In this document: positions 50,439 to 63,758 of the stretch, piece by piece | How the letters are laid out: each line of letters starts with the position of its first letter | How positions within the stretch are numbered: position 1 is the first letter of the stretch | Origin: Ruegeria conchae | GTDB lineage: Bacteria; Pseudomonadota; Alphaproteobacteria; Rhodobacterales; Rhodobacteraceae | NCBI RefSeq assembly: GCF_000192475.1 | Contig: NZ_AEYW01000001.1 | Span: 1 to 64,000, forward strand | Length of the DNA: 64,000 nucleotides | Reading direction: 5' to 3' | Position numbers and translations under genes: made by a program | Notes under the pieces: generated by a model | What the model saw: the letters and a program-made list of their open reading frames with translations, nothing else | Databases searched by the model: none | Told to the model about the DNA's origin: nothing

Positions 50439-51857
50439 TCATTGGGTTATGATTTCCGGTCCCATGAACGTGTTGGGGAGGAAGGTCGACAGGAACGGAA
50501 CGTAAGTGACGATGATCAGGAACACGAACAGCACGGCCAGGAACGGAAGGGCTGCCTTGACCACGCTCATCATCGGCATTCCGGCAACGCCCGAGGTTAC
50601 GAAGAGGTTCAGGCCCACCGGCGGGGTGATCATACCGATCTCCATGTTCACTACCATGATGATGCCCAGATGGATCGGATCGATGCCCAGCTCGATAGCG
50701 ATGGGAAAGACCAGGGGTGCCACGATGACCAAGAGGCCCGATGGTTCCATGAACTGCCCACCGATCAGCAGGATGATGTTGACGACCACAAGGAACATCA
50801 CGGGCCCAAAGCCTGCCGACAACATCGCATTAGCGACCTGCTGCGGGATTTGCTCGTCCGTTAGCACATGTTTCAGGATCAGCGCATTGGCGATTACAAA
50901 CAGCAGGGTGATCGTCAGTTTGCCAGCATCAAACAAGGTCTTTTGAGTGTCCGGATGCACAATCGCGGTGACGATCGCCCAAGGCTTGCTCCTAAGGGGA
51001 ATGCGCGGGCCGGCGGGCGCGTCCTCGATCACCGCAGCGGCTGACAGGCTGCGGGTTTTGGGGGCCGCCAGTGGTCCCATGTCTTTGTAGACGAAGGTGG
51101 CGATGAAGAAGGCGTAGACAGCGGCCACAGCGGCGGCTTCTGTGGGGGTGAAGATGCCACCATAGATACCGCCCAGAATGATCACGATCAGGAACAGACC
51201 CCAACCGGCCTCGCGGCCCGACTGGAAAACTTCGCCCCAACCCTTCCACTCGCCCTTGGGCAGGTTCTTGATCTTGGCGATGACAAAGATGGTGACCATC
51301 AGCATAAGGCCGGCCAGCAACCCCGGAATGACCCCTGCAAGGAACATCCGACCCACCGACACCTCGACCGAGGCGGCATAGACCACCATCACGATGGAGG
51401 GTGGGATCAGGATGCCGAGCGTACCGGCGTTACAAATCACACCGGCAGCGAATTCCTTGGAATACCCGACCTGCCGCATACCGGTGATTACAATTGTACC
51501 GATGGCAACCACCGTGGCAGGCGACGAACCAGACAGCGCGGCAAACAGCATGCAGGCAAACACGCCAGCAATGGCGAGGCCGCCCGGGAAATGGCCGACA
51601 CATGCAATTGAAAAACGGATGATCCGCCGCGCCACACCGCCGGTTGTCATGAAGGACGAAGCCAGAATGAAGAACGGAATCGCCAGCAAGGTAAAGTGGC
51701 CTTCAAATGCGGCAAACAAGGTTTGCGCGACCGAGGCCAGCGAACTGTCGGAAAACCACAGCAGGAATAGAATCGAGGACATCCCAAGCGAGATTGCAAT
51801 CGGGACGCCGATCATCAGGAAGCCGATGACCATGGCAAAGAGAAGGACGGTTTCCAT
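50439..51857 (-). CDS. dctM: TRAP transporter large permease DctM
   Basis: 472-residue large membrane subunit of a TRAP transporter. The DctM pattern includes FAALSGSSPATVVAIGTIVI and LGILIPPSIVMVVYAASVEV, and the C-terminal MEIGMITPPVGLNLFVTSGV. A cytoplasmic insert of about 60 residues around 255-310 makes it longer than the usual 425-440. Its start overlaps the dctQ stop by 1 base. Confidence 0.93.
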   Translation of the reverse strand: METVLLFAMVIGFLMIGVPIAISLGMSSILFLLWFSDSSLASVAQTLFAAFEGHFTLLAIPFFILASSFMTTGGVARRIIRFSIACVGHFPGGLAIAGVFACMLFAALSGSSPATVVAIGTIVITGMRQVGYSKEFAAGVICNAGTLGILIPPSIVMVVYAASVEVSVGRMFLAGVIPGLLAGLMLMVTIFVIAKIKNLPKGEWKGWGEVFQSGREAGWGLFLIVIILGGIYGGIFTPTEAAAVAAVYAFFIATFVYKDMGPLAAPKTRSLSAAAVIEDAPAGPRIPLRSKPWAIVTAIVHPDTQKTLFDAGKLTITLLFVIANALILKHVLTDEQIPQQVANAMLSAGFGPVMFLVVVNIILLIGGQFMEPSGLLVIVAPLVFPIAIELGIDPIHLGIIMVVNMEIGMITPPVGLNLFVTSGVAGMPMMSVVKAALPFLAVLFVFLIIVTYVPFLSTFLPNTFMGPEIITQ

Positions 51858-52522
51858 TATTTCGCCTCCGCGTTCTGGGCTTCAATTTCGGCCAGTTCTT
51901 CTTCAACCTCGTGGCTGGCCACGAGCCGATCCGCCTTTCCGTTCAGGATGCTGAATGTCGCCTGAACAAACCGCAGGAACAGCAACGCCATCGAGATCGG
52001 CAGCACGATGTAAGGCAGAAAACGCGGGATTTTTTCGTAGGCTTCTCCTTCGTTAAAGGCGCCTGCCATCCAGGCAAGGATACCGGGCATCGGGATGTCA
52101 TTGGTCTCGTACCAGCCCTTTTCGCGATAATCCTGCTCGAACCCGAGCGGGAACCAGCGCCCTTCGGTGGCGGGCAGGTTGGCGAAGTTGGCCCAGTAGT
52201 CCCAAGATCCCTTCAGCATAAGAAATGAGAAGGCGACACATACAGCGGCAGCGGCCAGCGCCAGCCGTTTCCGGGCGTTGCCGTGCACCATGTTCACCAT
52301 CAGATCGACCCCCAGATGCGCGTGTTTTTTCACCGCGTAGGAAGCCCCCAGCAGAACCAGCCAGGCGAACAGGAAAACCGTCATCTCCAACGCCCAAAGG
52401 ATATTTGAGTTAAAGACATATCTGGCAACGACATTGGCAAATGTCAGTGCGGTCATCAGACCCAGAATGAAGGCGATCAAAACCTCTTCGATCCGGTCCA
52501 TGAGCGAGTGATTGTTGGTCAT
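51857..52522 (-). CDS. dctQ: TRAP transporter small permease DctQ
   Basis: 221 residues from the ATG at 52522, which has a strong GGGAGGGAGGG site; the frame extends to 52537. Four-TM small subunit with NSNILWALEMTVFLFAWLVL near 36-55. The extra loop of about 50 residues between TM3 and TM4 matches the longer DctQ of C4-dicarboxylate systems. It sits between dctP and dctM. Confidence 0.92.
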   Translation of the reverse strand: MTNNHSLMDRIEEVLIAFILGLMTALTFANVVARYVFNSNILWALEMTVFLFAWLVLLGASYAVKKHAHLGVDLMVNMVHGNARKRLALAAAAVCVAFSFLMLKGSWDYWANFANLPATEGRWFPLGFEQDYREKGWYETNDIPMPGILAWMAGAFNEGEAYEKIPRFLPYIVLPISMALLFLRFVQATFSILNGKADRLVASHEVEEELAEIEAQNAEAK

Positions 52523-52539
52523 AGCCCTCCCTCCCAACA

Positions 52540-52578
52540 GCCGTTTTCAGGAAAACGGCAGGCAGGATTGTCCTGCCC
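52540..52578 (-). promoter_or_regulatory. Hairpins between dctP and dctQ
   Basis: Two stems in the 70-base gap: GGCAGGA/TCCTGCC (52561-52577) and a perfect 9-bp GCCGTTTTC/GAAAACGGC (52540-52559). They probably stabilise the dctP message or lower permease expression, like the hairpin after aapJ. Confidence 0.65.
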
Positions 52579-52592
52579 GCCGATGGTGTGGC

Positions 52593-53594
52593 TCAGAAGC
52601 CAGAGTTGATCTGAACCGCCGCGTCGAGGGAGTCTTGACCGATATCGCCCGTGAATTGCTCCCATACCGGCTGCATGGCGGTGACCCATGCCTGACGCTC
52701 GTCATCCGTCAGGGTGCGGATGGTGCCGCCCGCGTCCAGGATCGCCTGACGGTTCTTTTGATTGACCTCATAGGATTCCGAGTTCCGGGTGGCTGTAACC
52801 TCGTCCAGAATGGTCAGGAACTGCTCGCGTACTGCGGGGTCCAGACTGTCCAACCAGTCCACTGAAGCCACCACCAGATAGTCGATGATGCCGTGATTGG
52901 TCTCGGTAATGCCGTCCTGCACCTCGAAGAATTTCTTGCCGTAGATGTTGGACCAGACGTTTTCCTGCCCGTCGACAACACCCTGCTGTAGCGCGCCGTA
53001 GACCTCCGAGAACGCCATCTTCTGAGGGCTTCCTCCAATTGCTTCCATCTGCGCGACCAGCACGTCCGAGGACATAACCCGGAATTTCAACCCATCCGCG
53101 TCGGCCGGTGTAACCAGCGGAACATTGGCCGACATCTGTTTCATGCCGTTGTGCCAGAAGGTCAGCCCCTGAAGGCCGCGACGCTGCATCGAATCCAGCA
53201 GGGCTTGCCCGGCGTCCGAGGTTTGGAAGGCATCGACCGCCTCGATGTTCTTGAACAGGAACGGCAGGTCGAAGATGCGGAATTTCTTGGTGAATTTCTC
53301 GAATTTGGACAGTGAAGGCGCGGCCAGTTGCACGTCACCCTGCAACATGGCCTCGAGCACTTTGTCGTCATTGTAGAGGGTCGAGTTCGGAAAAACCTCC
53401 ATGCAGGCTTTTCCGTCCATTTCTTCGTTGATGCGCTGTTCCAGCAGCGTCGCTGCGATGCCTTTGGGGTGTTTGTCGGTATTGGTAACATGGCTGAACT
53501 TGATGACGACTTCGCCTGGATCACAGGCGGCAAATGCGGAACCCGCACCAGTAACGAGCGCAACAACCAGGCTTGATGTCTTCCAGAATTTCAT
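52593..53594 (-). CDS. dctP: TRAP transporter substrate-binding protein DctP
   Basis: 333 residues. Signal peptide MKFWKTSSLVVALVTGAGSA then FAACDPGEVVIKFSHVTNTD. The TRAP carboxylate-binding Arg falls in GLKFRVMSSDVL (about 170-181), and the GALQQGVVDGQENVWSNIYG region at about 205-224 is diagnostic. Length and partners fit a C4-dicarboxylate-type system; the actual ligand is unproven. It is transcribed away from the hydrolase-leuCD operon. Confidence 0.92.
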   Translation of the reverse strand: MKFWKTSSLVVALVTGAGSAFAACDPGEVVIKFSHVTNTDKHPKGIAATLLEQRINEEMDGKACMEVFPNSTLYNDDKVLEAMLQGDVQLAAPSLSKFEKFTKKFRIFDLPFLFKNIEAVDAFQTSDAGQALLDSMQRRGLQGLTFWHNGMKQMSANVPLVTPADADGLKFRVMSSDVLVAQMEAIGGSPQKMAFSEVYGALQQGVVDGQENVWSNIYGKKFFEVQDGITETNHGIIDYLVVASVDWLDSLDPAVREQFLTILDEVTATRNSESYEVNQKNRQAILDAGGTIRTLTDDERQAWVTAMQPVWEQFTGDIGQDSLDAAVQINSGF

Positions 53595-53683
53595 AGCTTC
53601 CTCCCGTTCTGTCAGGCCGGTCTGACCCGATCAAAGATGCTGAGCGAGAGTACATGCTTGGGCGGCGATGATTTTTCGGAAGA

Positions 53684-53706
53684 ATTGATCAGTATATTCG
53701 ATCAAT
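53684..53706. promoter_or_regulatory. Inverted repeat in the dctP / hydrolase divergent region
   Basis: ATTGATC, 9 bases, GATCAAT: perfect 7-base arms. The T-N11-A spacing inside it fits a LysR-type site. It lies between two divergent operons, with two LysR genes downstream at 56683 and 57760. Confidence 0.5.
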
Positions 53707-53763
53707 ATCGGTGTAAAAGTCGGGTATCGTGAATAACAACCCATTTTCGCGGAGCGCTCCGGT

Positions 53764-54669
53764 ATGTTTCTGGATTTCGAGGAACTGACTCTGAAAGTCG
53801 GTGAGCAGAAGATTTTTGTTCGTCACGGGGGCGACCCTGGCAATCCGGGTCTTTTGTTGTTGCACGGCTATCCGCAGACATCGGCCATGTGGCATGCGGT
53901 TGCCCCGCAGCTCACAGATCAGTTCCATGTCATCTGTCCTGACCTTCGCGGATATGGTCGGTCGTCCAAACCCGCCTCAGATGATCGGCATATGCCCTAT
54001 TCGAAACGCGAAATGGCAAAGGACATGGTCTCAGTCATGTCTCAGATGGGGCATGAGTCGTTTCTGGTCGGTGCCCATGATCGCGGTGCGCGCGTTACTC
54101 ATCGAATGGCTCTGGATCATCCGCAGAATGTCCAGGCGATGGTCTTGTTGGACATCGCGCCGACGCGTGAAATGTATCGCGACACCTCAAAGGAATTCGC
54201 CACCGCCTATTGGCACTGGTTCTTTCTGATTCAGAAACACCCTATCCCGGAACAGATCATCGGCAATGATCCCGCGCAGTTCTGGAAACTGAAGTGCTTC
54301 AATCAAGCCAAGGGCGAAAACCCTTTTATCGCTTCAGCCCTCGACGAATACATCGCCGCCTTCAGCACACCCGAGGGCGTGCACGCCTCGTGCGAGGACT
54401 ACCGCGCTGCGGCGACCATCGACATCGAACATGACGATCAGGACGACGGGGGGAAGGTCGAACAACCGCTGATGGTCCTATGGGCCAAGCGTGGGGTGAT
54501 CGAGACCTGCTTTGATGCGAAGGCGCTCTGGCAGGAGCGAGCGCTCCGGGTCGAGGGCGAGGCCGTCGACGCCACGCACTACATGGCCGAAGAGATCCCG
54601 GACGAAATAGCCAGCCGAATGCGCGCATTTTTCCTGCGCCAGATCGAACAGAAGGATGCTGCCGAATGA
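53764..54669 (+). CDS. Haloacetate (fluoroacetate) dehalogenase-like hydrolase
   Basis: 301-residue alpha/beta hydrolase. All residues that I know as functional in fluoroacetate dehalogenase (RPA1163) have counterparts at matching spacing: nucleophile Asp106 with carboxylate-binding Arg107 and Arg110 (HDRGAR), Asp130 (LLDIAPT), halide-site His151 and Trp152 (AYWHWFF), Tyr213 (EDYRAAA) and catalytic His272 (DATHYMAEE). It should hydrolyse a 2-haloacid, or a related substrate, to the hydroxyacid. The stop overlaps the LeuC-type gene by 4 bases, so the two enzymes are made together. Confidence 0.85.
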   Translation: MFLDFEELTLKVGEQKIFVRHGGDPGNPGLLLLHGYPQTSAMWHAVAPQLTDQFHVICPDLRGYGRSSKPASDDRHMPYSKREMAKDMVSVMSQMGHESFLVGAHDRGARVTHRMALDHPQNVQAMVLLDIAPTREMYRDTSKEFATAYWHWFFLIQKHPIPEQIIGNDPAQFWKLKCFNQAKGENPFIASALDEYIAAFSTPEGVHASCEDYRAAATIDIEHDDQDDGGKVEQPLMVLWAKRGVIETCFDAKALWQERALRVEGEAVDATHYMAEEIPDEIASRMRAFFLRQIEQKDAAE

Positions 54670-56060
54670 GCAGGACGCTTTACGACAAACTGGTGGACGC
54701 ACATAAGGTCTGCGATCTGCCGGACGGCGACATGCTGATCTATGTCGATTTCCACATCATGAATGAATACACCAGCCCGCAGGCCTTTTCCGGGCTGGAT
54801 CAGAAAGGGCTTTCCGTTTGGCGGCCCGAGGCTCATCTGTCGGTAGTCGATCACGTGAATGCCACACGGCAGCGCGATCCGCATGATGCAGCGTCTAAGC
54901 TGCTGATCGACAATCTGGAGGCCAATTGCAAAAAGCACAACATCGCCTTCTACGGCCTGGGCGACCGCCGCCAGGGGATCGAACATGTTGTTGTCCCTGA
55001 ACAAGGGCTTGTCGCACCGGGGATGTTGATCGCCTGCGGCGACAGTCATACCACCACGTACGGGGCCTTCGGAGCGCTCGGTTTTGGCATCGGTACGTCC
55101 GAGGTTGAACATGTGCTGGCAACGCAAACCCTGCGCTATAAGCGGCTGAAGACCATGCTGGTCAATATCGATGGCGATCTCGCCCCCGGTGCGACCGCCA
55201 AGGATATCATCATGAAGGTGGTTCAGGTGGTCGGCGCGGGCGGCGCCAATGGCTATGCCGTCGAGTTCTCCGGGTCGGCCATCCGCTCACAGGAAATGTC
55301 CGGGCGGATGACGATTTGCAATATGGCGGTCGAGTTGGGAGGACGGGCCGCCTTGATTGGAGCCGACGAAAAGGCGCTTGAGAAAATAAAGGCACGCGCG
55401 CATAGCGGCACGCTGGATTTTGGTGGTCTGGAGTGGAACTCGGACCCCGGCGCAGAGTATGATACGGTGTTCGAGATCAACGCCGCCGATATTGCCCCGA
55501 TTGTCAGTTGGGGCACCAGCCCGGATCAGTCGGTTCCTGTCGACGGCTCAGTCCCAGCTGAGACCGAGGGGATGACGCCCAAGGCTCGCGAAGCGCTAAA
55601 CCGGGCTCTGGGCTATATGGGCTTGAAAGCGGGTCAGGCGATGACCGATATCGAAATCGACAGCGCCTTTATCGGATCTTGCACCAACAGCCGCATCGAG
55701 GATCTGCGCGCTGCAGCCTCAATCCTGAAAGGAAAAAAGGTCGCAGGATCGGTCAATGCCATCGTTGTGCCCGGTTCGACCTATACTCGCCTGCAGGCCG
55801 AGTCTGAGGGGATCGACCGGGTGTTTAAGGAAGCAGGCTTTGACTGGCGCCCTGAAAGCGGCTGTTCGATGTGCCTTGCGATGAATGACGATATTGCCAT
55901 GGATGGCGAACGGATTGCGTCCTCGACCAACCGCAATTTCGAAGGTCGGCAGGGCCGCGGGGCTCGCACCCACTTGATGAGCCCGGAGATGGTGGCCGCC
56001 GCCGCCATTCATGGCCGTATCGCGGATGTCCGTGAGTTTCTGAGCGAAGGAGCGGAATAA
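54666..56060 (+). CDS. LeuC-type aconitase-family large subunit (divergent)
   Basis: 464 residues. Fe-S ligands Cys339 (FIGSCTNSR), Cys400 and Cys403 (SGCSMCLAMN). GDSHTTTYGAFGALGFGIGT at about 125-144 is the active-site region. The N-terminus differs from the biosynthetic enzyme as I remember it: FHIMNEYTSPQAF and VDHVNAT (60-67) replace the usual RHLVHEVTSPQAF and DHNVPT. Annotated by family as 3-isopropylmalate dehydratase large subunit, but its setting (dehalogenase, TRAP, LysR) points to a catabolic hydro-lyase. leuD-like starts 1 base after it. Confidence 0.87.
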   Translation: MSRTLYDKLVDAHKVCDLPDGDMLIYVDFHIMNEYTSPQAFSGLDQKGLSVWRPEAHLSVVDHVNATRQRDPHDAASKLLIDNLEANCKKHNIAFYGLGDRRQGIEHVVVPEQGLVAPGMLIACGDSHTTTYGAFGALGFGIGTSEVEHVLATQTLRYKRLKTMLVNIDGDLAPGATAKDIIMKVVQVVGAGGANGYAVEFSGSAIRSQEMSGRMTICNMAVELGGRAALIGADEKALEKIKARAHSGTLDFGGLEWNSDPGAEYDTVFEINAADIAPIVSWGTSPDQSVPVDGSVPAETEGMTPKAREALNRALGYMGLKAGQAMTDIEIDSAFIGSCTNSRIEDLRAAASILKGKKVAGSVNAIVVPGSTYTRLQAESEGIDRVFKEAGFDWRPESGCSMCLAMNDDIAMDGERIASSTNRNFEGRQGRGARTHLMSPEMVAAAAIHGRIADVREFLSEGAE

Positions 56061-56061
56061 G

Positions 56062-56667
56062 ATGCCAAAAACTGTTCACGGGCTGGCCGCCGCCCTGCCG
56101 CTTGCCAATGTCGATACCGATGTGATCATGCCTAAACGCTTTCTGATAACGATCACACGCGAAGGGCTGGCGGATGGCACATTCGCCGATCTGCGCTTTC
56201 ACGACGATGAAACGCCGCGAGCGGATTTTGTGCTGAACACCCATCCCTGGCACGAGGCCAGAATACTGGTTGTCGGCGATAATTTCGGCTGCGGCTCCAG
56301 CCGGGAACACGCGGTTTGGGGACTGGTTCAACTGGGTATTCGGGGCATCATCGGCACAAGCTTTGCGGGCATTTTCTACGACAATGCGCGCAAGAATGGC
56401 CTTGCCTTGCCCATTGTCAGTCCCGAGGTGCGAGATCAGTTGATGCTAGCGGCGTCCCATGAGGATGGTGCTAACTATACGATTGATGTCGAAAACCGGG
56501 TCATCAAACACGGAGAGGCAGAGCTGCCATTTGAAATGGATGACGCGACACAGACCGCCCATCTTGAGGGCCGCGACGACACCTTGAACTCGCTGGAATT
56601 CGCGGACGCGATCCGGAAATTTGAGAGCAGGTTAGGTGAACGGCAACGGGTGCGTGTCATACAGTAG
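56062..56667 (+). CDS. LeuD-type aconitase-family small subunit
   Basis: 201 residues, the swivelling small subunit that partners the LeuC-type protein. NVDTDVIMPKRFLITITREG is at about 17-36, and GDNFGCGSSREHAVWGL at about 73-89 is the substrate-loop signature. It is only 1 base after the large subunit. The substrate is not readable from sequence; isopropylmalate, citramalate/citraconate and dimethylmalate are all known for this family. Confidence 0.87.
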   Translation: MPKTVHGLAAALPLANVDTDVIMPKRFLITITREGLADGTFADLRFHDDETPRADFVLNTHPWHEARILVVGDNFGCGSSREHAVWGLVQLGIRGIIGTSFAGIFYDNARKNGLALPIVSPEVRDQLMLAASHEDGANYTIDVENRVIKHGEAELPFEMDDATQTAHLEGRDDTLNSLEFADAIRKFESRLGERQRVRVIQ

Positions 56668-56682
56668 TTAGGACAAGTTGAC

Positions 56683-57594
56683 TTGGAACTTCGCCAACTT
56701 CAGTGCTTTGTGGCAGTCGCCGAAGAACTGCATTTTCGAAAGGCAGGCGAACGCCTCGGCCTTAGTCAGCCAGCCTTGTCCGACCGAATTTCCGCCTTGG
56801 AGCACGAGTTGGGCTTTGCTCTGTTCTTTCGGACAACCCGGCAGGTTAGCCTAACGCAAGCGGGGTCCGAATTCCTGCGCGACACCAAACGGATACTGGC
56901 GGATATCGACAAATCTGTTTCCAAAGCCCGACACACAGCCGACAGTGGGCTGAAGACTTTGCGGGTTAGCGGCGTTGACGAGGCGATCTCGATGCTGTTG
57001 CCTCCTGCGCTGATGGAATTCCGAAAACGGCAACCTTCAGTGCATGTGGACATTCTGGAAATTTCGTCTTCGGACCACCATACGCAAGAGCTTGCAAATC
57101 ACCGCACCGACATCGCGTTTGTCCGCCAGCCTCCTGAAGACGAGTTTCTGAAGGCAGATCTTTTGTACCAGCAGGGTGCCGTCGTGGTCTTGCCTTCCGC
57201 GTCGGAACTTGCAGGTCGGGAATCGCTGTCAGCGGCGGATATTAGGGATCACCCGATTATTGGGTTTCCCAAACATGCCCGCCCGATCCTTCACGACCTG
57301 CTCTGGAGCAGCTATCGAGCCCATGGGTGGCAACCGGACATCGCCTGCGAAGTCATAGACAAGTCCACCATGCTGCAGCTGGTGGCGCACGGGGTTGGCA
57401 TCGGGCTGGCACCTGCATGGATCCGCGCTCTTGCTCCCCCGCAATTGAGTTGCATTCCGTATCAAACGGACGGCCAGAGCATCGAACTCTACGTCGCGCG
57501 ACGGGCGGCGGGAAACTCGAAAATGGTGGACGAGTTCGTGGATGTAGTCAAAGACGTATCTTCGCGACTGTACACCGCCGGGACGTGTCAGTGA
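56683..57594 (+). CDS. LysR-family regulator
   Basis: 303 residues, TTG start at 56683 (MELRQLQCFVAVAEELHF). The winged HTH spans about 1-60 with LGLSQPALSDRISALEHELG, and the effector domain covers about 90-295. It follows the LeuD-type gene by 15 bases on the same strand, so it probably belongs to that operon, and is a candidate regulator of the divergent dctPQM. Confidence 0.88.
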   Translation: MELRQLQCFVAVAEELHFRKAGERLGLSQPALSDRISALEHELGFALFFRTTRQVSLTQAGSEFLRDTKRILADIDKSVSKARHTADSGLKTLRVSGVDEAISMLLPPALMEFRKRQPSVHVDILEISSSDHHTQELANHRTDIAFVRQPPEDEFLKADLLYQQGAVVVLPSASELAGRESLSAADIRDHPIIGFPKHARPILHDLLWSSYRAHGWQPDIACEVIDKSTMLQLVAHGVGIGLAPAWIRALAPPQLSCIPYQTDGQSIELYVARRAAGNSKMVDEFVDVVKDVSSRLYTAGTCQ

Positions 57595-57759: not shown

Positions 57760-58683
57760 CTAACTCGTTAGCGTCGCTTTCCATTGCGGCGCTTCCACCG
57801 CTTCAATCGTCAGCTCAATACAAAGCTGACGCACGGCTTCAAAGGCAAAAGTCGCCGGACGATCACTTAATTCTCCAATAAAGAGCGTGCGATTGAGTTT
57901 TGGCTTGATAATCGGACGCGTCGTCAATGTGCCCGCGTCAATGTGTTCTTTCAGGATAAACTCGGTACCCACGATGCAACCGATGCCAGACAGAAGGGAT
58001 CCGCTGATTGCGGAGATCGAGTTTATTTGGAACTGCGCGTTCTCTTCGATCCGCCTGAGTAGGGAAGGGTCGTCCATCACAGCTCGGGTGTACAGGCCTT
58101 GGCGAAGAATTATCAACGGTAAGTCCAGCAGTGCCTCAAAACTGATTGCATCGGTTCCACCGATAACATCTGGCCGACCCACCAGAACCAACTCCTCTTC
58201 CAAGACCGGTTGGAACCTGAAACGCGCGTCAGGAAGTTGGTTGTAGGTTAGGGTCAAATCGACCTCCGAAGACGCAAGCTGTTGGGCGGTAGACCCGGAA
58301 AAGATCTCAGAAAGATGCAGGCGTAGGTTCGGATAGTCTTGTGAAACACGCTGTACCAGAGGCACGCCAATAGCTTTGACAGCCGAATGCGCAAAGCCAA
58401 CCGAAATCTCACCCGCGACCTCATTCTCAGTTTCTCGGATATCGGTGCTGGCGGCTTGCATGGATCGCAGGATCGCACGCGCGTGTTCATATAATCGAGC
58501 ACCAGATGCTGTCGGCCGCACGCCCCTTGGCAATCTCTCAAATAGCTGCGTACCAAGTTCGGCTTCGAGATTGGACAGATGCCTGCTTAATGCAGACACA
58601 GCGACCCTTTCCCGATCAGCAGCACGAGCCAACGCGCCTTCCTCAAAGATCGCAGCAAAGTATCGGAGTTGCCTGCTGTCCAT
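57760..58683 (-). CDS. LysR-family regulator
   Basis: 307 residues. HTH at about 1-60 (MDSRQLRYFAAIFEEGALAR, then VSALSRHLSNLEAELG), effector domain to the C-terminus. It is divergent from the CoA-transferase gene, the classic LysR arrangement, so it likely controls the CoA-transferase/lyase/TRAP operon. A palindrome lies immediately upstream of its start codon. Confidence 0.9.
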   Translation of the reverse strand: MDSRQLRYFAAIFEEGALARAADRERVAVSALSRHLSNLEAELGTQLFERLPRGVRPTASGARLYEHARAILRSMQAASTDIRETENEVAGEISVGFAHSAVKAIGVPLVQRVSQDYPNLRLHLSEIFSGSTAQQLASSEVDLTLTYNQLPDARFRFQPVLEEELVLVGRPDVIGGTDAISFEALLDLPLIILRQGLYTRAVMDDPSLLRRIEENAQFQINSISAISGSLLSGIGCIVGTEFILKEHIDAGTLTTRPIIKPKLNRTLFIGELSDRPATFAFEAVRQLCIELTIEAVEAPQWKATLTS

Positions 58684-58704
58684 GCTTTCTCAATATCAGA
58701 AAGC
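58684..58704. promoter_or_regulatory. Palindrome upstream of LysR / CoA-transferase
   Basis: GCTTTCT, 7 bases, AGAAAGC: perfect 7-base arms, beginning at the base next to the lysR start codon. It may be an operator for autoregulation or an RNA hairpin hiding the lysR ribosome binding site. Confidence 0.45.
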
Positions 58705-58781
58705 AGCCTTATTAACATTGAAATATTGCAAAGCATTCCGATCGGGTAGCTTTGGTTAACGCAAGTCCAACCGGAGCATAC

Positions 58782-59975
58782 ATGGTGTCAGACGATTTCA
58801 GGCCTTTGCGGGGCATCCGCGTCGTTGAAATGACCCACATGATTATGGGGCCAAGTTGCGGCCAGATCCTTGCCTATCTTGGTGCTGACGTGATCAAGGT
58901 TGAGCCCCCTGCGGGGGACAAAACCCGGCACCTGACCGGAATGGGGCGGGGGTTCTTCCCAAGTTTCAATCGCGGCAAGCGTTCAATTACCTTAGATTTA
59001 AAGTCCGAGGCCGGAACGTCGGCGCTGGATCAGCTTCTGGCAACCGCCGATATTTTCGTTGAGAACTTCCGCGACCAGTCACTTGCCAAGATGGGATTTG
59101 CGCCCTCCGCGTTGCGAGGTAAGTACCCCAATTTGATCATCGCATCCTGCAAGGGCTTCCTGCATGGCCCCTATCAGGACCGAACGGCAATGGACGAGGT
59201 CGTTCAGATGATGACCGGAATGGCCTATATGACTGGCCCAACGGGTCGTCCCTTGCGCATTGGCTCTTCTGCAAATGACATCATGGGTGGGGTCTTCGGC
59301 GCTCTTGCAGTTCTCGGCGCGTTGTTGGAGCGGCAAGAATCCGGAGAGGGTCGGACGATACGCATTGGCCTGTTCGAGAATTGCCTGATGCTTGTCATGC
59401 AACACATGGTGCAATTCGATCTGGACGGACACGAACCGGCCCCTATGCCCGAGCGGGAATTTTCCTGGCCGGTCTACGACATCTTCGACACGCGGGACAA
59501 TCGTCAGATCTTTGTGGGTGCTGTCACTGAGGGCCATTGGCAAATATTGTGCAAAGCAATCAGCTTAGAGCATTTGCTGGAGGATAACCGGCTTCAGACA
59601 AAGATGGGCCAGATCGAAGCGCGGAACTGGACACTTCCCCTTTTTGCAGAAGCAATCGGCAAACGCGATTTTCCTGAACTGATCGAGATTTTTGAAGCTT
59701 CGGGCATTCCCTTTTCGCCTATCAATCGTCCCGCCGATATGTATCAGGATCCACATGTCCTGCGCCCCGGCGGTCTGCAACTCTCACACGACGCTGGTGG
59801 GCAGGTGTTCCGGGCTCCGGGTTTGCCCATCGAAGTTGATGGCGGGATTCCACATCCGGTTTCACTCAATGTCGCAGATGTCGGCGATGACACTGACACC
59901 GTGCTTTCAGAGCTTGGCCTGTCACCTTCGGAAATATCGGCTGCAAGTGGCGCGGCGGATAGGAATTCAACGTGA
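58782..59975 (+). CDS. CaiB/BaiF (family III) CoA-transferase
   Basis: 397 residues from ATG 58782 with a GGAG site; the frame is open from 58752. The family core is GIRVVEMTHMIMGPSCGQIL (11-30), LGADVIKVEPPAGD (about 33-46) and NRGKRSITLDLKS (about 63-75). The catalytic Asp is Asp138 in TAMDEVVQ. It moves CoA from a donor such as succinyl- or acetyl-CoA to an organic acid. The next gene, a lyase of the HMG-CoA lyase family, starts within its stop, so its product is probably the lyase substrate. Confidence 0.92.
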   Translation: MVSDDFRPLRGIRVVEMTHMIMGPSCGQILAYLGADVIKVEPPAGDKTRHLTGMGRGFFPSFNRGKRSITLDLKSEAGTSALDQLLATADIFVENFRDQSLAKMGFAPSALRGKYPNLIIASCKGFLHGPYQDRTAMDEVVQMMTGMAYMTGPTGRPLRIGSSANDIMGGVFGALAVLGALLERQESGEGRTIRIGLFENCLMLVMQHMVQFDLDGHEPAPMPEREFSWPVYDIFDTRDNRQIFVGAVTEGHWQILCKAISLEHLLEDNRLQTKMGQIEARNWTLPLFAEAIGKRDFPELIEIFEASGIPFSPINRPADMYQDPHVLRPGGLQLSHDAGGQVFRAPGLPIEVDGGIPHPVSLNVADVGDDTDTVLSELGLSPSEISAASGAADRNST

Positions 59976-60916
59976 CTCGCCTGTCAGAAATATACCCACC
60001 CGACAGGGTCGTATTGCGGGAAGTCGGATTGCGCGACGGTCTGCAGATGGTCCAACGATATCCCTCAACGGCAGCGAAGGCCGAATGGTTGCGCCGTGAA
60101 AGAGCCGCGGGTGTTCGGCACTTTGAGATTGGCTCTTTCCTTCCGGCAAAAGCTATGCCGCAATTCGCTGATGTTCGGGACATCAGCGACATTTGCCGCA
60201 GCCTTAACGTCCATTCGGCAGCGCTTGCCTTGAATGATCGCGGCGCGACGGACGCGGTTCAAACTCCGGTCGGCGAAATCGTCACAGTGGTCTCGTCGAC
60301 CGAGGAACATAGCCAGGCAAACGCACGTCGTACACGTGAGGAAGCAATTGCTCTGGTTGGTAAAACCGTTGAACTGGCAAGAGGCTCAGAAACATCACCT
60401 TTGGTACAGGTCGGCATCGCCATGGCGTTCGGTTGCTCGATTGCTGGCAAAGTCGACCCGGACGATGTGGTGCGCATCGCGGCCGCATGCTCGGAGGCGG
60501 GTGTGGACATGATCGGTCTTGCAGACACAGTCGGATTTGCGGGTCCAGATCAGGTGCAAGACCTTGTTGAACGTGTGAAAAACGAACTGGGCGACGTTGC
60601 GCTGAGCATTCACCTGCACGACACAAGGGGAATGGGGATCGCCAATGCGTCTGCCGCCCTCGACGCTGGCATCCGGGTGATCGATGGCTCGCTGGCGGGG
60701 CTCGGGGGCTGCCCCTTTGCCCCAGGCGCAACAGGGAACGTGGTATTCGAGGACCTTGTATATCTCTGTGAACGCAAAGGTTTTGCAACCGGCATCGACT
60801 TGGAAAAGCTGATGTCTGTGCGAGAGGTCGCCGCGTCTGAAATGCCTGACGAACAGCTCTTCGGTGCGTTGTCACGAGCCGGAGCACCGCGTCACATCAA
60901 CTGGCGCGCCCGATAA
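59972..60916 (+). CDS. HMG-CoA lyase family acyl-CoA lyase
   Basis: 314 residues, GTG start overlapping the CoA-transferase stop by 4 bases. DRE-TIM barrel with VVLREVGLRDGLQMV (13-27), metal-site HLHDTRGMG (214-222) and the loop GGCPFAPGATGN (245-256) holding catalytic Cys247. It should cleave a 3-hydroxy-3-methyl-acyl-CoA: HMG-CoA to acetyl-CoA plus acetoacetate, or citramalyl-CoA to acetyl-CoA plus pyruvate. The pairing with a CaiB/BaiF enzyme recalls the succinyl-CoA:citramalate CoA-transferase and (R)-citramalyl-CoA lyase of Chloroflexus. Confidence 0.9.
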   Translation: MTRLSEIYPPDRVVLREVGLRDGLQMVQRYPSTAAKAEWLRRERAAGVRHFEIGSFLPAKAMPQFADVRDISDICRSLNVHSAALALNDRGATDAVQTPVGEIVTVVSSTEEHSQANARRTREEAIALVGKTVELARGSETSPLVQVGIAMAFGCSIAGKVDPDDVVRIAAACSEAGVDMIGLADTVGFAGPDQVQDLVERVKNELGDVALSIHLHDTRGMGIANASAALDAGIRVIDGSLAGLGGCPFAPGATGNVVFEDLVYLCERKGFATGIDLEKLMSVREVAASEMPDEQLFGALSRAGAPRHINWRAR

Positions 60917-60944
60917 ACAACAAGATGACAGAGTGGAGGAGAAC

Positions 60945-61943
60945 ATGAACATTTTCAGAACTGCCACGGCAGCGCTACTGGCCGCAACGACCCTAAGCAG
61001 CGCGGCCTATGCCGAAGCAACCGAGATGCGCTGCAGCCACCAGTTGCCACCTGCGCACCATATCGCAAAGGTCATCGACCAATGGGCCGAAGAGATTGAG
61101 ACCCTGTCGAACGGAGAAATCGACGTTCAAATCTTTGGTGCCAACAGCCTTGTAGGCGCGCGTGAGAACATTGCATCGGTGGCCAAAGGCAACATTGAAT
61201 GCGCGTTCTCGATCAACCCGCAATGGGGTAAAACCCTGCCGATCATGAACGTGACACTGAAGCCTTATGCCGTCACTGATCCGGAGACGCTTGCCGCTTG
61301 GCCGGATAGCGAAGCGGCTGCGTTTCTGGATCAGAAGCTGCTTGAAAAAGGTGTGCAGAACGCGGTCTGGCTGTTCACAACACGGATGACAGCTTTGACG
61401 TCGAAGGGATCGCCGCTGGTCAATCCGGAAGATTTCGAAGGTGTGAAGATAAGGGGCCTGAACCCGGTGGCGGATGAGGGGCTTGTCGCAATGGGGGCCG
61501 CGCCTTCAGCGATGTCTGGCTCGAAAGTGTACGAAGCGCTCTCAACTGGAGTGATCGATGCGGGCATGACCGATATCGCCGCCGCCTATTCGCGCAAATA
61601 TTTTGAAGTCCAGGACCACGTGACGGTGGTCCCGCTGTTTAGTGTGTTCTTCCACGGCTACCTTAACCCGGCTTGGTTTGATGGTCTGACGGATGCACAG
61701 AAGGCCGCAATAGCCGAGGCGGGAGCCAAAGCGGCAGAATGGGCAGTTGCCGCGTCCGAAGAAGCATCTGCCGCTGCACCCGAGCAGCTGGCTGACAATG
61801 GCATGAAGGTGCATTTCCAGACGCCTGAGGAAGAAGCTGCCTGGAAAGAGTTAATGGTACCGGCTTTCGACAAATCGTTTGGCGACGCAACCGGTGAGGA
61901 CGGCGTCAAACTGCTTGAGCTGGTCGGTCAAATTTCGAACTGA
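60945..61943 (+). CDS. TRAP transporter substrate-binding protein
   Basis: 332 residues from ATG 60945 (GGAGGAG site). Signal peptide of about 23 residues ending SSAAYA before EATEMRCSHQLPPAHH. The DctP-type ligand region GVKIRGLNPVADEGLVAMGA is at about 166-185, and ALSTGVIDAGMTDIAAAYSR near 195-214. It belongs to a different subfamily from the DctP at 52593. It feeds the DctQM pair just downstream, so the acid it binds is probably the CoA-transferase substrate or its precursor. Confidence 0.9.
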   Translation: MNIFRTATAALLAATTLSSAAYAEATEMRCSHQLPPAHHIAKVIDQWAEEIETLSNGEIDVQIFGANSLVGARENIASVAKGNIECAFSINPQWGKTLPIMNVTLKPYAVTDPETLAAWPDSEAAAFLDQKLLEKGVQNAVWLFTTRMTALTSKGSPLVNPEDFEGVKIRGLNPVADEGLVAMGAAPSAMSGSKVYEALSTGVIDAGMTDIAAAYSRKYFEVQDHVTVVPLFSVFFHGYLNPAWFDGLTDAQKAAIAEAGAKAAEWAVAASEEASAAAPEQLADNGMKVHFQTPEEEAAWKELMVPAFDKSFGDATGEDGVKLLELVGQISN

Positions 61944-61944
61944 C

Positions 61945-62475
61945 ATGAAGCAGGATCATGAAATTGACACCTCTGAGGCCTTGCCGGTCTCAGGGGTGGA
62001 GCGCGCGGTGCGTCTGGTTACGCTATCTGGGGCAGGTATCGCCGCATTGCTGGTGCTCGTCGTATTCGGGGTCGTGAGCTACAGCGTCTTCATGCGCTAT
62101 ATCCTTGGCACACCAATTACTTTTTCCGATGAGCTCAACGGCTTTATCGTCGTGGCAATGGTTGCCCTCGGAGCGGGAGAGGTCCTTTTGCGCGGCGAAC
62201 ATTTCGGGGTCGACCTGCTGACTGAGCGTGCTGGTCCTCGAACTCAATGGTTGGTCGAGATTTGGGGGATGATAGGTGTGATCCTGGTCGCTGCGGCTAT
62301 TCTCTACAGCGCGGTGATTATGGTGCAGTTCTCATACGATTTCGGTATTTATTCAGATGGATATCTGAGCGTCCAGATGTGGATTCCGCAAGGCTTTCTA
62401 CTTATCGGCATGATCATTCTGATTCTTGCGGCGCTGGCTCGCATTTTCACGCTTCTGACGGTTCGCCGACTATGA
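61945..62475 (+). CDS. TRAP transporter small permease
   Basis: 176 residues from ATG 61945, one base after the binding-protein stop. Four TM helices; TM1-2 region VFGVVSYSVFMRYILGTPIT is at about 40-59. The stop overlaps the large-permease start by 4 bases. Confidence 0.88.
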   Translation: MKQDHEIDTSEALPVSGVERAVRLVTLSGAGIAALLVLVVFGVVSYSVFMRYILGTPITFSDELNGFIVVAMVALGAGEVLLRGEHFGVDLLTERAGPRTQWLVEIWGMIGVILVAAAILYSAVIMVQFSYDFGIYSDGYLSVQMWIPQGFLLIGMIILILAALARIFTLLTVRRL

Positions 62476-63758
62476 TGACGTTTTTGATTTTGGCCGGGCT
62501 GATTGTCCTCTTGCTCACCGGGATGCCAATCTTTGCCGGGCTTGGGCTGACCTCGCTGATCATAATGATGCTGACAGAAGGCAACGTGAACAGCGCGGCC
62601 GATACGGTTTTTGCCAAACTGAACAACGGCCTTTTGACGGCCATACCGATGTTTGCCTTCATGGCGCACGTGATGATCCGTGCTGGCGTGGTTAAGGATC
62701 TTTACGATGCAGCAAATGCGATTGTCGGCCATTTGCGTGGTGGTCTTGGGGTCGCCACGATCCTCTCCTGCACCATTTTCGCAGCCATTTCCGGTTCGTC
62801 TGTTGCCACGGCGCTTACTATTGGTTCGACGGCCATCCCGCAGATGAAGCGCTTCAACTACAGCCCGAGCTATTCATACGGTGTGATTGCAGCGGGCGGT
62901 ACGCTCGGGATTTTAATCCCTCCCTCTGGACCTCTTATTCTCTATGCCATCGTAACCGAGGCTTCGATCGGAGCTCTTTTCCTGGCCGGGTTGGTGCCGG
63001 GTATCATGATGGCTGTCATTTTCGCGATCTGGGCGATGGTCAGCGCAGGGTTTGGGGGCGCAGTAGTTTCCCAACCATTTGCAGGCATGGGCGTGATCTG
63101 GGCACGTATGAGGCAATCGATCTGGGCCTTGTTGATGCCACCGGTGGTATTGGGCGGGATCTACCTCGGAATTTTTACGGCCACTGAAGCCGCTTCTATT
63201 GGCTGCCTATATGCTCTGTTCATCAGCGTAGTGGTTTACCGCAATTTCGGTCTGCACGACCTTTGGGTGACCGCGTTTGAGACAGTGCGCACAACGGCGA
63301 TGCTGTTCATGATCCTCGCTTCTGCGGCGCTGTTTGGTCACGCCGTAACCATCATTCGCCTGCCCATCGAGATCGTCGAACAAGTGACGGCAATCGGCCT
63401 CAGCCCCGCCATGTTCGTCGTAGCCGTTATGCTGCTCATTCTGGTGCTGGGCATGTTTTTGGAGACCATATCGATCATCCTGATTACGACGCCAATCGTT
63501 TTTCCTGTCATGCTGGCATTGGGGATCGACCCGATATGGTACGGCATCCTGCTAATGATCAATCTCGAACTGGCGCTGATCACACCTCCTGTCGGGATGA
63601 ACCTCTTCGTTATCAAAGGTATTGCGAAAGCCCCTTTGTCGGAGGTCATTCGCGGAGCCTTGCCCTATGCCGCGCTAATGCTACTGGGCCTGCTCCTGGT
63701 CTTTGCAATCCCACCTTTGTCCACGTGGCTTCCCGAGGCGGCGGGGTTCGGCGGCTAA
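62472..63758 (+). CDS. TRAP transporter large permease
   Basis: 428 residues from ATG 62472, which overlaps the small-permease stop (ATGA); the long frame upstream is out of family. DctM core with FAAISGSSVATALTIGSTAI, LGILIPPSGPLILYAIVTEA and the C-terminal LELALITPPVGMNLFVIKGI. A normal-length DctM, about 45 residues shorter than the one at 50439. Last gene of the CoA-transferase operon. Confidence 0.92.
   Translation: MMTFLILAGLIVLLLTGMPIFAGLGLTSLIIMMLTEGNVNSAADTVFAKLNNGLLTAIPMFAFMAHVMIRAGVVKDLYDAANAIVGHLRGGLGVATILSCTIFAAISGSSVATALTIGSTAIPQMKRFNYSPSYSYGVIAAGGTLGILIPPSGPLILYAIVTEASIGALFLAGLVPGIMMAVIFAIWAMVSAGFGGAVVSQPFAGMGVIWARMRQSIWALLMPPVVLGGIYLGIFTATEAASIGCLYALFISVVVYRNFGLHDLWVTAFETVRTTAMLFMILASAALFGHAVTIIRLPIEIVEQVTAIGLSPAMFVVAVMLLILVLGMFLETISIILITTPIVFPVMLALGIDPIWYGILLMINLELALITPPVGMNLFVIKGIAKAPLSEVIRGALPYAALMLLGLLLVFAIPPLSTWLPEAAGFGG

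Follow-up and report, generated by a model that had tools for sequence, protein, structure and literature searches.

A putative LysR-controlled operon of Ruegeria conchae for the uptake, CoA activation and cleavage of a C5 2-hydroxydicarboxylate, possibly (R)-citramalate

In this study, we analyzed by computation a 64,000-nucleotide stretch of Ruegeria conchae DNA (the window) and describe in it a six-gene unit that, on balance and judging from sequence, we read as a catabolic operon under LysR control whose substrate is a C5 2-hydroxydicarboxylate. This acid, most likely (R)-citramalate, would be taken up, charged with CoA and cleaved to acetyl-CoA and pyruvate. A TRAP system would import the acid, its presumed ligand; a class III CoA-transferase would move CoA onto it, with succinyl-CoA or acetyl-CoA as the presumed donor; and an enzyme of the HMGL family would split (R)-citramalyl-CoA into acetyl-CoA and pyruvate in a metal-dependent retro-Claisen reaction. 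Control of the operon by the LysR-type protein is likewise presumed, as are the substrate and its stereochemistry.

The unit spans positions 57760 to 63758. At its core lie a gene for a class III (CaiB/BaiF) CoA-transferase, the proposed succinyl-CoA:(R)-citramalate CoA-transferase (58782-59975, plus strand; PF02515, 335 bits), and a gene for an HMGL-family lyase, the proposed (R)-citramalyl-CoA lyase (59972-60916, plus strand; PF00682, 171 bits). Both are intact and, as the original prediction had it, they overlap by four bases (GTGA, at 59972-59975). Its further claim, that a TRAP transporter follows in the same direction, held as well: all three subunits are encoded on the plus strand, namely the solute-binding protein DctP (60945-61943; PF03480), the small permease DctQ (61945-62475; PF04290) and the large permease DctM (62472-63758, starting at 62472 or 62475; PF06808; TIGR00786, 384 bits against a cut-off of 268). 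Also part of the unit, and overlooked earlier, is a LysR-type regulator gene divergent from the operon (57760-58683, minus strand; PF03466/PF00126), and directly upstream of its start codon a LysR-box-like palindrome, TTCT-N7-AGAA, can be read from the sequence (58687-58701). The unit seems to end at 63758, because the next plausible genes, read by eye, lie on the opposite strand and look unrelated (epimerase-like, sugar ABC transporter).

The arrangement recurs in other genomes. Our comparison covered 108 loci, counting the window; at least two genomes are in it twice (L042/L090 and L044/L098), many loci come from closely related Bradyrhizobium, and some are cut short or near-duplicates. The CaiB gene adjoins the lyase gene in 105 of the 108, and the full set of divergent LysR, CaiB, lyase and TRAP genes is present in 54; of the remaining loci, 23 have LysR without TRAP, 3 have TRAP without LysR and 25 have neither. 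Since, in addition, the exact 4-base overlap is found in 81 of 106 pairs measured, the arrangement exceeds chance, and this conserved synteny supports the logic of uptake, activation and cleavage that had been proposed for the genes. Across 59 loci, the identities of CaiB and lyase are correlated with r = 0.83, and none of 2000 permutations gave more than 0.137. The LysR gene is divergent and fewer than 400 bases from CaiB in 77 of the 105 loci that have the pair, and the palindrome TTC-N9-GAA occurs in 68 of these 77 intergenic regions, where 200 shuffles gave no more than 6, with the strict form TTCT-N7-AGAA in 31 (no more than 2 in shuffles). Among the best 80 loci, the nearest named relative is that of Ruegeria sp. 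2205SS24-7, whose lyase is 96% identical. Within the family, the distribution of the lyase is patchy, as it is found at E 1e-60 or better in 27 of 295 genomes, our own included, and a genome of the same genus (G043) has none at that threshold. In Bradyrhizobium loci, the pair stands without TRAP genes, and reading the neighbors by eye we recognized no recurrent one as a further catabolic step, as one would anticipate for a route ending in acetyl-CoA and pyruvate.

The specificity of the flanking steps can be read from the proteins only in outline. The product of 58782-59975 combines the PF02515 domain with an Asp in the motif TAMDEVVQ that is conserved in 59 of 59 aligned sequences and that we take to be the active-site Asp of class III CoA-transferases; seven NCBIfam models matched it, and none of the named types (succinate-glutarate, formyl-CoA, mesaconate, carnitine) passed its cut-off, the best reaching 205 bits against 750. 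In DctP, R170 is invariant in an alignment of 18 sequences and is presumably, by analogy, the carboxylate-binding Arg; among the 50 fold matches shown (Z 29.8-33.5), no single ligand stands out.

The original prediction had named as an alternative the catabolism of HMG (meglutol), which would be converted to HMG-CoA and then to acetyl-CoA and acetoacetate. Several observations speak for it: the lyase has the family and the fold, its AlphaFold2 model (pLDDT 93.7) finding human HMG-CoA lyase as its best match in the PDB (2cw6; Z 40.3, rmsd 1.8 over 293 residues); the PDB kin of the CoA-transferase include, beside YfdE, human SUGCT, deposited as succinate-hydroxymethylglutarate CoA-transferase; and many relatives of the lyase are publicly annotated as hydroxymethylglutaryl-CoA lyase, the name under which 6NDS from Acinetobacter baumannii was deposited. 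Compared with the HMG-CoA lyases of leucine degradation (human HMGCL, Pseudomonas aeruginosa 2FTP and the paralog in its own genome), the window lyase indeed shares the fold and the residues R41, D42, N138, D204, H233, H235, C266 and N275 (human numbering), which are kept in every row aligned, together with the metal ligands, the catalytic Arg and Asp and the Cys loop. It differs, however, at two positions, where Q146 and G148 replace human R165 and Y167. These positions share one strand of the barrel, modeled as window residues 144-150, and we assume from the disease-variant literature that both residues are important for HMG binding; literature searches on R165Q/Y167C and on HMG-CoA lyase structure returned nothing usable. 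Homologs of the leucine-cluster paralog conserve R165 and Y167, as do the enzymes of human, P. aeruginosa and B. subtilis. Canonical HMG-CoA lyases were picked by similarity to that paralog, which had matches in 79 of 100 genomes; the best 30 loci and three PDB chains were used, 1YDN being left out. Both residues are present in all 33 of these distinct sequences and absent from all 106 distinct lyases of the window clade, from which we infer that the two residues define the HMG-CoA lyase family.

The genome, moreover, encodes a separate HMG-CoA lyase. Its other full HMGL homolog (C11:237939, 36% identical to the window lyase) adjoins biotin carboxylase, carboxyl transferase and enoyl-CoA hydratase genes, neighbors as expected for methylcrotonyl-CoA carboxylase in a cluster of the leucine-degradation type, whereas the window lyase has no carboxylase neighbors. 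Against the curated cut-off of 246 bits for HMG-CoA lyase (NCBIfam PRK05692), the paralog scores 454.8 and the window lyase, in a narrow miss, 239.2. None of the unit's six genes is an acetoacetate-activating one. These points disfavor HMG catabolism, which we now consider improbable; the window lyase is routinely labeled a leucine-breakdown enzyme but is probably not that enzyme.

The loss of R165 and Y167 would argue against HMG, not specifically for citramalate. In groups assigned by gene context, neither residue is found in 36 HMGL-CaiB, 4 LeuCD-linked, 17 enoyl-CoA-hydratase-linked and 12 other sequences, the last being rows without clear context, 6NDS among them; because the hydratase-linked and unclassified lyases lack both, and some of them probably use other substrates, the signature is probably not confined to one acid. 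Lyases of the hydratase-linked context, in which an enoyl-CoA hydratase gene adjoins, usually together with an acyl-CoA dehydrogenase gene, were seen at L221, L222, L227, L229, L236, L239-L241, L243, L245, L260, L267 and L269-L271. That such lineages also lack the two residues would suit a reading in which the window lyase cleaves a different branched 3-hydroxyacyl-CoA arising from the breakdown of a larger compound, but we give this reading little credence: the window unit contains no beta-oxidation genes, and the window clade, most members of which have a regulator of their own and many a transporter as well, forms a single branch (SH-aLRT 100) within a 73-row group separate from the canonical lyases, in a tree built by a quick search from 87 of the 208 distinct sequences. 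One sequence, L208, lacks R165 and Y167 yet falls among the canonical lyases, on a long branch with support 81.

A further reading keeps the same chemistry and changes the acid: another C4-C5 hydroxydicarboxylate might be cleaved, either 3-methylmalate to propionyl-CoA and glyoxylate or D-malate to acetyl-CoA and glyoxylate. This we regard as rather unlikely, if still worth attention, given that 6NDS is described in its entry title, our source for the ligand, as a complex with CoA and 3-methylmalate. The A. baumannii enzyme resembles the window lyase in that it lacks R165 and Y167 and in that its relatives, in four of four loci examined, adjoin a CaiB gene with a LysR-type gene close by. Unlike the window lyase, it sits on a separate tree branch, with an MFS gene downstream in two of the four loci and no TRAP genes as a set immediately behind the pair; in one locus of its branch (L313), an aconitase-family gene lies about 3 kb from CaiB. 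A literature search covering few subscription papers found nothing that combines even two of 6NDS, HMG-CoA lyase and Acinetobacter baumannii. The other-acid reading draws further on amidase-type genes (isochorismatase or CN_hydrolase) near the LeuCD-linked relatives described below, which suggest maleamate-like precursors; against it, none of the six genes in the unit handles glyoxylate or propionyl-CoA.

For (R)-citramalate, the preferred substrate, the more distant relatives of the pair provide an indirect argument. IPMI-type enzymes interconvert citraconate and (R)-citramalate, and LeuCD-like or aconitase-family genes lie within the fetched stretch in 7 of 60 loci (L213-L272), namely L233, L235, L237, L238, L255, L256 and L265. 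In three of these, from two genomes (L233, L235 and L237), LeuC, LeuD, CaiB and lyase genes stand in a row; near the lyases of L255 and L265 we saw no CaiB gene. On Roseomonas plasmids (L141:7974-12235 and L156:6974-11220), a polypeptide fusing HMGL and CoA-transferase, its domains tested for one of them, is followed by an aconitase-family protein, and L256, from another class of the same phylum, carries an aconitase-family gene 62% identical to the Roseomonas one, with a LysR gene, divergent from lyase-CaiB. When LeuC copies were compared in six genomes, picked for linkage already seen there, the copy lying no more than about 10 kb from the lyase was, in five genomes, either the L233 one itself or a protein sharing 62-85% identity with it, and their other LeuC copies were 46-52% identical to that of L233. 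Isochorismatase-family (amidase-like) genes occur within about 6 kb of the lyases in L235, L255 and L265, stretches that also hold LeuCD-type genes, and hint at maleamate-like precursors. The LeuCD- and aconitase-linked relatives are, where measured, 41-45% identical to the window lyase and fall outside its clade; these links would favor substrates of the malate/citramalate type, an argument that extends to the window by kinship rather than directly.

The window itself holds LeuC/LeuD genes (54666-56667), which we considered as part of the unit and rejected. They belong to a second module (50439-57594) of divergent TRAP genes (M, Q and P; 50439-53594, minus strand), an alpha/beta hydrolase, the LeuC/LeuD-like hydro-lyase and a LysR gene. 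This module is conserved in seven of the seven other genomes found, none of which has the lyase at the threshold used, and in none of 97 close loci of the pair does LeuCD occur in the flanking sequence that was fetched, which for some loci was short. The LeuC of the second module is a paralog, 52% identical, of the other LeuC of the genome. An apparent in-frame TGA in the LeuC of two genomes (L148 and L151) was not confirmed, that of L151 being the gene's own stop.

Taken as a whole, the earlier suggestion of a citramalate-like pair is supported by the conserved synteny, the missing HMG-type residues, the 3-methylmalate-bound relative and the LeuCD-linked relatives, and the exact substrate stands as a proposal. 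We count against citramalate the placement of L208, the deposition of 6NDS as an HMG-CoA lyase and the small share of loci with LeuCD or aconitase links, and likewise the lack of LeuCD in the flanks of the 97 close loci, the TRAP fold matches that point to no one ligand and the same-genus genome G043 without the lyase at the threshold used. In published work, citramalate, solute-binding and TRAP transporter occur together in one article (PMC12016538), as do citraconate and TRAP transporter in two others; a search that covered few subscription papers found nothing combining HMG-CoA lyase, CaiB and TRAP transporter. As for a source of the acid, passages on Roseobacter denitrificans, of the Roseobacter clade, state that it makes citramalate for isoleucine (PMC2749216), and the best 10 of 93 papers on diatoms and exometabolomes contain no occurrence of the word.

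Tentatively, and at slightly less than even odds, we propose more generally that many proteobacterial "HMG-CoA lyases" without R165 and Y167 are citramalyl-CoA or methylmalyl-CoA lyases coupled to a CoA-transferase. They would then make up a widespread, unrecognized pathway for branched C5 dicarboxylates that can be entered in two ways, by direct TRAP import, the case of the window, or through a dedicated enzyme of the LeuCD type that hydrates citraconate or maleate. If this is right, a two-residue signature would separate the HMG-CoA lyases of the leucine pathway from the CoA-transferase-coupled group and so correct a common annotation, and a route by which Alphaproteobacteria of sea and soil use (R)-citramalate would become directly testable.

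(R)-citramalyl-CoA lyase (EC 4.1.3.46) is an HMGL-family protein encoded with a CoA-transferase, an arrangement also found in the window pair, and this lyase and the (R)-citramalate CoA-transferase have reportedly been characterized from Chloroflexus. The two enzymes of the (R)-citramalate route to acetyl-CoA and pyruvate are named in passages of a review (PMC8307300); passages of the Chloroflexus genome paper name only an (S)-type lyase (PMC3150298), and the (S)-route is, from its passages, the subject of another article (PMC4682846). With the Ict-Ich-Ccl pathway of itaconate degradation, the window unit would share CoA transfer followed by citramalyl-CoA cleavage, but the itaconate route passes through (S)-citramalyl-CoA according to the abstract of PMC12290011, and none of the six genes identified from 57760 to 63758 encodes an itaconyl-CoA hydratase. 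The Chloroflexus-type pair, likened here by enzyme names rather than by sequence, has in common with the proposed function of the window pair a CoA-transferase and a lyase that link citramalate with acetyl-CoA and pyruvate; the window pair differs in being accompanied by a TRAP transporter and a LysR-type regulator.
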